In this document: one piece after another, positions 43,769 to 55,445 of the stretch | Layout: each line of letters opens with the position of its first letter | How positions within the stretch are numbered: the stretch's first letter is position 1 | From: Terriglobia bacterium | GTDB lineage: Bacteria; Acidobacteriota; Terriglobia; Terriglobales; Acidobacteriaceae | Assembly: GCA_020072845.1 (NCBI GenBank) | Contig: JAIQGF010000012.1 | Coordinates: 41,975-105,974, forward strand | Reading direction: 5' to 3' | DNA length: 64,000 bases | Notes under the pieces: generated by a model | The model's input: the letters and a program-made list of their open reading frames with translations, nothing else | Database searches by the model: none | What the model was told of the DNA's origin: nothing | Translations under genes and position numbers: made by a program

Positions 43769-44668
43769 ATGAAGCCACTGACGGCCGTGCAGCATGTGCG
43801 CAGAATGCGGGGCGGATCGCAAGCACAGCTTCTTCGAGCGAGCGATTCTCACCTTTATGTTGTGAAATTCACTAACAACCCACAGGGTGTGCGGATGCTG
43901 GCGAATGACTGGATCGCGTCTCGCTTAGCTCAGCGGATCGGCCTGCCGGTGCCGGAGGTCGCCGCAGTCGAAATTTCGCCCTGGTTGATCCGTTCGACTC
44001 CTGAACTGTCTTTCGAACTACCGAGCGGCCGGGCTGCGTGCCGCGAAGGCGTTCATTTCGGCTCGCGGTTCGCGGTGAATCCGCAGGAAGGCATGGTTAC
44101 CGATCTCCTTCCGGCTGCGTGCTTGCCACGAGTCAAGAACCTCGCCGCATTCATCGGCGCTGTGGCCTTCGACAAGTGGACATGCAATACCGATCGACGC
44201 CAGGCCGTCTTCGTTGCCACGCCTGAAAGCGCCTGGTACTCGGCAGTTTTTGTTGATCAAGGACACTGCTTCAACGCAACGCACTGGGATTTCCCTGACT
44301 CGCCGCGGTACGGCCTCTATGACTGGCGTGAGGTCTATTTGCAGGTAACCGGCTGGGAAAGCTTTGAACCGTGGCTTACGCGCGTGGAATCGCTGGACGC
44401 TCAGGAAATCTGGGAAATTGCTGACAGCACATCTCCTGTCTGGTATGACCAGGACGCACTTGGTCTTGCGCAACTGGTCAGTCAGTTGATACTCCGGCAG
44501 CGGCGTCTTCGTCGCATCATCGCCGACCTGAAACACTCAGCCGTCGACCCGTTTCGGAACTGGCGCCAATCCGCATCCAGCTACCCCGCCGCGCGTTCCC
44601 GCGCTCTGCCGAGCCCGGTCCCGCAGATTCGTTCGAAAACGGGGCCCATCAACCAGCCGAAACCATGA
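43769..44668 (+). CDS. HipA-like kinase-domain protein
   Basis: A 299-residue protein resembling the compact HipA-like kinase group (HipA_2). The N-terminal lobe has YVVKFTNNPQGVRMLANDWI with the likely ATP lysine; then RIGLPVPEV and GVHFGSRF. The catalytic region FDKWTCNTDRRQAVFV fits the D..N..DR pattern. These proteins are usually accompanied by a DUF3037 gene; none is seen here, so partner and target are unknown. It may be a toxin-like or regulatory kinase of the accessory block. Confidence 0.7.
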   Translation: MKPLTAVQHVRRMRGGSQAQLLRASDSHLYVVKFTNNPQGVRMLANDWIASRLAQRIGLPVPEVAAVEISPWLIRSTPELSFELPSGRAACREGVHFGSRFAVNPQEGMVTDLLPAACLPRVKNLAAFIGAVAFDKWTCNTDRRQAVFVATPESAWYSAVFVDQGHCFNATHWDFPDSPRYGLYDWREVYLQVTGWESFEPWLTRVESLDAQEIWEIADSTSPVWYDQDALGLAQLVSQLILRQRRLRRIIADLKHSAVDPFRNWRQSASSYPAARSRALPSPVPQIRSKTGPINQPKP

Positions 44669-44693: not shown

Positions 44694-44963
44694 TCATCGC
44701 CGGCGCTCCTTCAATTGGTGACTGTCGGACGCCTTTAAGTCGCACCCGTAAATCTTCTTGAATTCGCCGATCTGCCGGAGCGTTGCTCCGGAGAAGGGCG
44801 TCTTGCCCTCGAAAACGTGCAGCAGGATTCCTTCCAGCAGGTCGCCGACCGCCAAGTCTTTCAGTTCGGCGACGGCCTTGAGAACCTTCAAAAGCCGTTT
44901 CTCGATCCGGATCCCCGTTTGCACCCGCTGGATCTCGCGCGGCCGTTCCGGTTGTGTTACCAT
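44694..44963 (-). CDS. Small putative DNA-binding regulator
   Basis: An 89-residue protein, starting MVTQPERPREIQRVQTG. After a basic N-terminus (RIEKRLLKVLKAV) comes a helical body (ELKDLAVGDLLEGILLHVF), a pattern suggesting a ribbon-helix-helix or AbrB-like small regulator. This is weak evidence. It is divergent from the MerB-like selenoprotein gene and its start lies on a 16-bp palindrome, which favours regulation of that gene (inference). Confidence 0.45.
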   Translation of the reverse strand: MVTQPERPREIQRVQTGIRIEKRLLKVLKAVAELKDLAVGDLLEGILLHVFEGKTPFSGATLRQIGEFKKIYGCDLKASDSHQLKERRR

Positions 44964-44978
44964 GGTACATATGTACCA
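44963..44978. promoter_or_regulatory. Perfect 16-bp palindrome between divergent genes
   Basis: TGGTACATATGTACCA is a perfect dyad. It overlaps the start codon of the minus-strand regulator and contains an ATG for a 26-codon plus-strand frame (44971-45051) that ends in an ATGA overlap with the selenoprotein start at 45048. The dyad is a good candidate operator; the short frame may be a leader peptide, with low confidence. Confidence 0.45.
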
Positions 44979-45047
44979 CATCACTACAGCCGATGGCAAC
45001 CGCGCTTTCGTTGTCCGGAGCGCACCTGCCGGCAAAAAGGGGCGACG

Positions 45048-45815
45048 ATGAGCGCGCCAATCCTGCACGGCGTCGGCCGCGACATCCTCACCCTGCCGGA
45101 AGACGGATTCGTGCAAGCCATGCACAATCTTCCGGCGCGCATGACCGCGCGCCTGGCATTCATGACGCGCCGGCACCATCTGGTCCGCGACTTCGTGGTA
45201 CGCGAATTGCCGCGGCAACGCCGCCCCCTGCGCCCCGGCCGAATCGCGCAGACCACCGGCCTCGAGCTCCACGAAGTGACGCGGATTCTCGCCGACCTGG
45301 AACAGCATCTGTTCTTTCTGGTGCGCGATGCCGGCGGCAACGTGGGTTGGGCATTTCCGGTGACGACCTCGCGGACGCCACATCGGCTGACCTTCTCGAC
45401 CGGAGAAAAGACTTTTGGGGCTTGAGCGGAGGACGCGTTTGCCACGTCCTTCGTGCAAGGACGCCTGCGGGGAGAGCAACTGCGGGTCCGCATCGAGTCG
45501 AGTTGCCGTCATTGCTCGCTCCCGATCGCCATCGAAGTTGATGATGATCTGCGCTGGCGGGTCCTCTCGCCGGGCGCATCGCCCTTGTTGTTTGAACCCG
45601 ACATGAATTGGCAGAGCTTCCACGGCCCCAACATCATTCACGACTATTGAATGCAGACCGTATTCTTCTGGTCAGAAGAACACGCCAGAAAATTCCGGGC
45701 GAAACACCGGCAGCCGGACGGGCTCTATTTGACGATGGAACAGGCCGCGTTCTCCGAGCGCATTGCGCAGTCGGGCTTGTTCGCATTGGGCGACGACGGG
45801 CGGCTGCGGCGGTAA
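45048..45815 (+). CDS. MerB-like organomercurial lyase homologue, predicted to contain two selenocysteines
   Basis: One frame of 256 codons is interrupted only by TGA at 45423-45425 (residue 126) and 45648-45650 (residue 201). Both stops are in frame 0 with the ATG at 45048 and with the final TAA at 45813. Residues 45-110 resemble the MerB winged-helix domain. The first TGA reads A-U-A-E-D, matching C-A-L-D around catalytic Cys96 and Asp99 of MerB (Asp129 here). The second reads U-MQTV-FF-W-S, matching Cys159-(4 residues)-FF-x-S. Each TGA has a stem-loop in the SECIS position. A double Sec enzyme fits better than two chance nonsense mutations. The gene is followed immediately by nfeD, convergent. 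ATG at 45048 has an AAGGGG just upstream. Confidence 0.75.
45445..45463 (+). promoter_or_regulatory. Candidate SECIS stem-loop 1
   Basis: CGTCCTT (45445-45451) pairs perfectly with AAGGACG (45457-45463) around loop CGTGC. The apical loop starts 26 nt after the first TGA. It has G in the second loop position followed by U in RNA, fitting the known bacterial SECIS rule (loop G among the first two bases, 16-37 nt after UGA). Confidence 0.7.
45659..45684 (+). promoter_or_regulatory. Candidate SECIS stem-loop 2
   Basis: TTCTTCT (45663-45669) pairs with AGAAGAA (45674-45680) over loop GGTC; three more pairs (45659-45661 with 45682-45684) lie beyond a 1x1 mismatch. The loop starts 19 nt after the second TGA. 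GGUC is the apical loop sequence of E. coli formate dehydrogenase SECIS. Confidence 0.7.
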
Positions 45816-55256: not shown

Positions 55257-55445
55257 TCCAGGCTTCAGGCGTCAGGCTTCAGGAAAATCAGCGGCTGTGC
55301 TTTGGCTCTGGTTTTTCAAACTGAGGTCAAAGACTCGCCAGCCCCGCAGGGGCGAATGACAGTAGCCCGGCGCTTCAGCGCCGGGAACCATGCGGCTTCA
55401 GATCAGAGTCCCGTAGGGACGGCTGAAATCGCGAGCCGATTGGCC
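55257..55445. repeat. Intergenic repeats with strong hairpins after the RND pump
   Basis: GGCTTCAGGCGTCAGGC-type array (55260-55282), then AGCCCCGCAGGGGCG, CCCGGCGCTTCAGCGCCGGG (8-bp perfect stem, 4-nt loop; near 55367-55386) and GTCCCGTAGGGACGGCTGAA (about 55409-55428). They separate convergent genes and could terminate both. Confidence 0.75.

Follow-up and report, generated by a model that had tools for sequence, protein, structure and literature searches.

Here we analyse a stretch of 64,000 nucleotides (the window) from a Terriglobia bacterium (assembly GCA_020072845.1, contig JAIQGF010000012.1, positions 41,975 to 105,974 of the forward strand), which carries a MerB-like gene of 255 codons plus a stop codon (window positions 45048 to 45815, + strand) with two in-frame UGA codons. 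By comparing its product with known folds and profiles, its DNA with that of relatives across bacterial genomes and its UGA codons with the rules of selenocysteine (Sec) insertion, we conclude that the MerB-like protein contains, near certainly, two selenocysteines. It would be, to our knowledge, the first MerB-fold selenoprotein in which both catalytic positions are predicted to hold Sec. Taken as a whole, a double selenoprotein of MerB fold, with Sec at both catalytic positions and likely activity as an organomercurial-type lyase, is probably the best explanation of the data, because the UGA codons are fixed in position, hairpins follow them, the genome encodes the Sec machinery, the proportions of non-synonymous relative to synonymous differences (pN/pS) stay low after each UGA, and the predicted fold is that of MerB.

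The reading frame is exactly that given in an earlier note on this DNA, open throughout except for UGA1 at 45423–45425 (residue 126) and UGA2 at 45648–45650 (residue 201). It ends with TAA at 45813–45815, and a start at M1 is supported by the invariance of this residue in a ten-row alignment of relatives. With UGA read as U, the product matches Pfam MerB (PF03243) with 51.9 bits against a cut-off of 27, and its AlphaFold2 model has a predicted local distance difference test (pLDDT) score of 94.5. The nearest folds in the Protein Data Bank (PDB) are those of MerB and MerB2, which occupy the first 11 rows of the Foldseek search and the first 8 rows of VIA-align (which ranks folds drawn from the Foldseek list only, so that other folds are possible), and identity to the solved MerB (3f0o, 1s6l) and MerB2 (5c17) is 15–20%. 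Profile alignment with PDB 1s6l places predicted Sec126 on Cys96 of MerB, predicted Sec201 on Cys159 and Asp129 (45432–45434, + strand) on Asp99, the same columns that the earlier note had paired. Cys96, Asp99 and Cys159 are described as strictly conserved, catalytic and the focus of MerB work in the part of the MerB survey available to us (PMC8261052). Whereas MerB has Cys at both 96 and 159, here the triad would be retained with selenium in place of sulphur at both metal ligands, in the motifs A-U-A and Y-U-M. Cys117 of MerB is likewise shared, as Cys153 (45504–45506, + strand), and unlike 1s6l, which has no CxxC in the alignment, the MerB-like protein has one around this position, completed by Cys156 (45513–45515, + strand).

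Scanning 84,980 species genomes from an alignment gave 99 relatives, of which 80 were kept; the search patterns behind these 80, FFWSEEH and [GA]A[CW]AEDA[IF][AI], do not require TGA. A single-protein scan of the same genome-contig collection found no relative. Together with the window copy and further loci, DNA was available for 90 loci, in which codons 126 and 201 are TGA/TGA in 83, TGC/TGA in three, TGT/TGA in one and unaligned/TGA in two, the remaining one (L024) belonging to another MerB subfamily with TGC at 126 and no alignment at 201. At aligned sites, none of the 90 carries TAA, TAG or TGG, so that the earlier note's argument that chance nonsense mutations are implausible holds, and the TGG that it had named as a possible replacement for TGA is absent. 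Leaving out L024 and the duplicates L057, L059 and L110 gives 86 distinct loci, window counted: 80 are TGA/TGA, four Cys/TGA and two (L022 and L023, fragments without site 126 that count for the second site only) have TGA at the second site. The codon at 201 is therefore TGA in 86 of 86 distinct loci, and the codon at 126 is TGA in 80 and Cys in four of the 84 that cover it. Rows covering the other residues have an Asp codon at 129 in 84 of 84, a Cys codon at 153 in 84 of 85 and a Cys codon at 156 in 79 of 85. Chance is excluded because the same two TGAs recur across loci.

Matches occur in 9 of 396 genomes sampled from the phylum (the host genome and that of L024 among them), where all stops inside the matches are TGA, at both sites where the loci cover them, and in 6 of 399 genomes of the class, where the double-UGA family comprises the host genome and two others, both with TGA at both sites. 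By record title, with bin names being rough, the 80 kept relatives come from 11 phyla, most commonly Chloroflexota (26), Acidobacteriota (15), Thermodesulfobacteriota (13) and Myxococcota (10), with eight unclassified.

Protein databases hold the family mostly in pieces. From 125 homologous proteins we examined 120, of which 40 end before residue 126, 50 have Cys at 126 and end before 201, 24 have Trp at both sites and six are other cases. Site 126 is a stop or Cys apart from 25 rows with Trp, which we read as gene calls made with genetic code 4, from P0019 and P0052, both with Ser (P0052 seems to be out of frame at this point), and from a single row that does not align. The earlier note had proposed to check whether homologues have Cys where the window has UGA; they do at site 126, and at site 201 Cys appears in only one of the 120 (P0019) and in distant MerB. 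No Cys/Cys relative was found among the 120. On a tree of 167 rows (whose protein rows are 47 of the Cys homologues, ending between sites 195 and 201 and shorter than 215 residues, and the 24 with Trp at both sites), the Sec/Cys label at 126 needs nine changes, of which well-supported branches force five; leaving out the Trp rows lowers the number to six, again with five forced. Exchange between Sec and Cys is the signal that selenoprotein searches look for, according to the available part of a recent inventory (PMC13188914). In 128 overlapping pairs with identity above 62%, taken together, pN/pS amounts to 0.212/0.691 ahead of UGA1, 0.193/0.615 between the UGAs and 0.186/0.675 after UGA2, which indicates that selection persists downstream of both.

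Each UGA is followed by a predicted selenocysteine insertion sequence (SECIS) on the + strand. SECIS1 (45445–45463; 7 base pairs, loop CGUGC) lies 26 nucleotides behind UGA1 and SECIS2 (45663–45680; 7 base pairs, loop GGUC) 19 nucleotides behind UGA2, and both satisfy the bacterial rules as given in the accessible text of the inventory (loop of 3–9 nucleotides, stem of 4–16 base pairs, G in the first two loop positions, 16–37 nucleotides from the UGA; PMC13188914). Folded alone, SECIS1 reaches −8.8 kcal/mol (z −2.66; 2 of 200 shuffles equally good) and SECIS2 −5.6 kcal/mol (z −1.97; 8 of 200). With pairs counted in register from the UGA, the inner five pairs of SECIS1 are possible in 405 of 405 cells over 81 loci with U126 and all seven in 531 of 567, compared with at most 340 of 567 when the partner is slid by one to three bases; for SECIS2, 608 of 609 cells over 87 loci can pair and at most 435 of 609 when slid. 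When the sequence is folded locally, the inner hairpin has the minimum energy in all 80 loci for SECIS1 and all 86 for SECIS2; 45-nucleotide folds starting from the UGA keep it in 70 and 72 of them, respectively.

A conserved protein alone could produce such pairing, and we therefore tested codon choice at sites whose residue is conserved in at least 90% of rows. The share of the commonest codon averages 0.97 (lowest 0.93) at the 10 sites inside the hairpins and 0.54 (highest 0.79) at the 35 sites outside them, a set that includes site 126 as represented by the four Cys rows alone. Three of the four loci with Cys126 have lost two or three SECIS1 pairs. When six paralogous genes are added, 650 of 651 SECIS2 pair cells are possible and the loop is GGUC in 93 of 93 sequences; in these paralogues the loop is kept while pairs are replaced on both sides (U-A to C-G, and in L143 C-G to G-C), and since the pairs covary while the amino acids change, it is the RNA, not the protein, that is conserved.

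The host genome (4.23 Mb in 27 contigs, 100% complete) contains the genes selA, selB, selC and selD for which the earlier note had proposed to look. SelB scores 364.7 bits against a cut-off of 242.25, SelA scores 563.7 bits, selC is a tRNA-Sec with TCA anticodon, and SelD (L027), also over its cut-off, has an in-frame TGA of its own and reads AAG-U-ASK, so that selD, too, is predicted to encode a selenoprotein; a UxxK motif is listed for SelD in the consulted portion of PMC13188914. SelB and tRNA-Sec are over cut-off in all eight other genomes with a match.

The position of Cys159 appears to be occupied by Sec in further MerB-like subfamilies. On contig C3 of the host genome, a second MerB-like gene (L143:1204-1989) retains the equivalents of Cys96 and Asp99 and has a single UGA, with TGA at the Cys159 position. 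Of 1575 homologues found for it, 120 were examined, one from the host genome: all 120 have the equivalents of Cys96 and Asp99, and 118 end exactly one residue before the Cys159 site. For these 118 it is the protein ends that are seen, with DNA for L143 itself alone; some of the entries are named alkylmercury lyase family protein, and the family is probably cut short at the UGA in annotation. Shorter MerB-like genes (L137, L138, L139 and L140) have TGA at both catalytic positions and Glu at the Asp99 position, L142 has Cys/TGA, and the GGUC hairpin stands behind the UGA of both L142 and L143. A predicted Sec at the Cys159 position thus recurs across these subfamilies. L143 and truncated entries such as P0228 belong to the MerB family and have their TGA or stop exactly at the Cys159 position, and differ from the double-UGA family in having Cys at the Cys96 position and one UGA and in standing apart on the tree, on long branches.

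The earlier note knew of no described family of this kind, and in the table of the most recent accessible inventory, of 119 prokaryotic selenoprotein families and subfamilies, the only MerB-like protein is SaoL, given there with a single Sec in a CU motif (PMC13188914). SaoL (NF040728) is thus a relative that the note had missed, a MerB-like protein with selenocysteine; yet the window's protein matches its profile weakly (37.8 bits against a cut-off of 140) and has two UGAs and no CU motif, so that table entry and profile set the two apart. SaoL is over its cut-off in none of 21 related genomes, and we rejected membership of the SAO system as the cut-off is missed, the 21 genomes give no SaoL and no SAO genes stand among the ten neighbouring proteins scanned. 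Two Sec in one chain are also found in MbdU (NF045648) and TsoB (NF045694), which the same table, as far as seen, lists under other families and motifs (PMC13188914). A literature search, largely not at full-text level, found no publication on a two-Sec MerB-like protein.

In the mechanism that we propose, each UGA would be read by SelB with Sec-tRNA through its own SECIS, and the metal of an organomercurial or a similar organometal would be captured by the selenolates of Sec126 and Sec201. The affinity of selenium for mercury greatly exceeds that of sulphur. Asp129 would then give a proton to the departing carbon, the part played by Asp99 in MerB, with Hg(II) remaining between both seleniums. 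The Cys153-x-x-Cys156 pair might take over the metal, a guess that we make because no MerA was found.

For the claim of the earlier note as a whole, a double-Sec organomercurial lyase or a relative of one, the double Sec is thus borne out by relatives, hairpins and machinery, and the lyase activity is what we infer from fold and residues, with organomercurials or related organometals as the most likely substrates. Several observations weigh against this reading. The protein falls far short of the NCBIfam cut-offs for MerB (35.1 against 200 bits for NF033555, and 30.1 against 193) and passes no cut-off of NCBIfam release 20.0. No MerA is over its curated cut-off in the host genome, where the best match (313.3 against 454.45 bits) reads like a dihydrolipoamide dehydrogenase, and no mer or sao protein was found among the ten neighbouring window proteins scanned (E 0.001). 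Neighbourhoods of the loci are mostly not conserved, so the substrate cannot be read from context. On the RNA side, the 45-nucleotide folds of the window itself choose another pairing (−17.8 kcal/mol at UGA1 and −12.2 kcal/mol at UGA2), and the codon difference inside and outside the hairpins has a p value (one-sided Mann–Whitney, 9 × 10−7) that is a guide only, as the rows are related sequences and the sites were picked with the hairpins already known. L106, with Cys126, keeps an intact SECIS1 that no UGA needs, which fits a recent exchange between Sec and Cys. P0019 combines Ser at 126 with the sole Cys at 201 among the 120 homologues. Finally, SelB and tRNA-Sec are also present in a genome of the same genus without the gene, so that co-occurrence alone proves little.

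Other readings that keep the double Sec differ in the chemistry. The lack of mer proteins among the ten neighbours and of a MerA over cut-off, the identity of only 15–20% to solved MerB and MerB2, and the MerB 99Ser variants with expanded range described in the available text of PMC8261052 would all suit an enzyme for another organometal or organometalloid (tin, lead or arsenic) rather than organic mercury, which we regard as rather unlikely, the Asp99 equivalent being invariant over the covered rows as in mercury-cleaving MerB. A diselenide or selenolate site serving redox, tight metal sequestration or sensing, with no carbon–metal cleavage, seems to us improbable, given that the equivalents of Asp99 and Cys117 are conserved together with the MerB fold and that neither UGA site forms a thioredoxin-type UxxC. 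Readings that dispense with selenium fare far worse. The 24 database homologues with Trp at both sites would fit an altered code in which TGA means tryptophan, if they were not code-4 calls as we take them to be, but at 126 the loci with DNA have either TGA or a Cys codon and never TGG, hairpins with near-fixed codons follow the UGAs, the TCA-anticodon tRNA is called as tRNA-Sec, and selA, selB and selD are present; we reject this reading as extremely improbable. A frame with two stops also resembles a young pseudogene, but decay through two nonsense mutations, or sequencing error, would have to produce the same TGA pair in 80 of 86 distinct loci with low pN/pS after both, and its probability is vanishingly small. 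We therefore retain the double selenoprotein of MerB fold, likely an organomercurial-type lyase, as the preferred explanation.

Unlike MerB of mer operons, the double-UGA gene was found with no mer operon around it; a mer context was looked for in the neighbourhoods of the loci, through MerA and among the ten neighbouring proteins scanned, and none was seen. A tblastn search of 72,556 plasmid records with the MerB-like protein returned no match, and a plasmid origin was likewise set aside. Upstream in the window, a divergent gene (44694–44963, − strand) encodes an 89-residue ribbon-helix-helix (RHH)-like protein, a possible regulator that matches Pfam RHH_4 below its cut-off (E 0.013, 16 bits against 25), and a perfect palindrome, GGTACATATGTACC, at 44964–44977 between the two divergent genes may be its operator. 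Three neighbour clusters occur in at least five loci, and the MerR-type (seven loci) and RHH-like (five loci) ones lie near the gene in all members. A direct search places an RHH-like protein no more than about 1 kb from the gene in seven loci, the window included; the homologues (L033, L018, L047, L034, L084 and L042) come from Acidobacteriota and Chloroflexota, and their sides and strands vary. A search for a shared operator in all seven loci showed related palindromes in just two of them, the window and L047, where TGTACCATGGTACA, which resembles the palindrome of the window, precedes the gene; the remaining five loci have none. Elsewhere, a MerR-family regulator stands directly upstream of the gene (L054, L060, L070, L086, L089, L099 and L107); the copy in L054 has no cysteine, which makes mercury sensing as by the MerR of mer operons unlikely. 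The divergent RHH-like gene with its palindrome, and the upstream MerR-type gene elsewhere, suggest local regulation: the gene stands alone and may be controlled by the RHH-like regulator here and, in some other phyla, by a regulator of MerR type.

A short reading frame, MYHITTADGNRAFVVRSAPAGKKGRR, at 44971–45051 ends in a stop codon that overlaps the ATG of the MerB-like gene (ATGA), and the two could be translationally coupled. The RHH-like gene is adjoined by a HipA-like kinase gene at 43769–44668 (Pfam HipA_2, 54.6 bits). Further along, an Acido-Lenti-1 RNA (Rfam RF01687, 53.4 bits) at 55340–55385 is in keeping with an acidobacterial genome.

Evolution appears to have put selenium at the two catalytic positions with which a mercury enzyme binds its metal. 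If the protein is a lyase, many genes for the degradation of organomercury would be present in soils and sediments, truncated at the UGA in current annotation. The MerB survey screened by Cys96, Asp99, Cys117 and Cys159, and its table, in the part available to us, shows no MerB for Acidobacteria; as it requires Cys96 and Cys159, double-UGA genes would not pass (PMC8261052). The natural UGA/UGA and Cys/UGA versions of the gene offer a clean test of the contribution of selenium to carbon–metal bond cleavage. More tentatively, and with the balance of our judgement slightly against it, the MerB superfamily may be in large part a hidden selenoprotein superfamily, a widespread set of mer-independent selenium organometal lyases of soils and sediments, with Sec at the Cys159 position and in the double-UGA family at Cys96 as well, that would constitute an uncounted route of methylmercury breakdown; if so, mercury-gene surveys with Cys159 as a requirement would miss them, and lyases with Sec at position 159 would be known to databases only as truncated alkylmercury lyase fragments.
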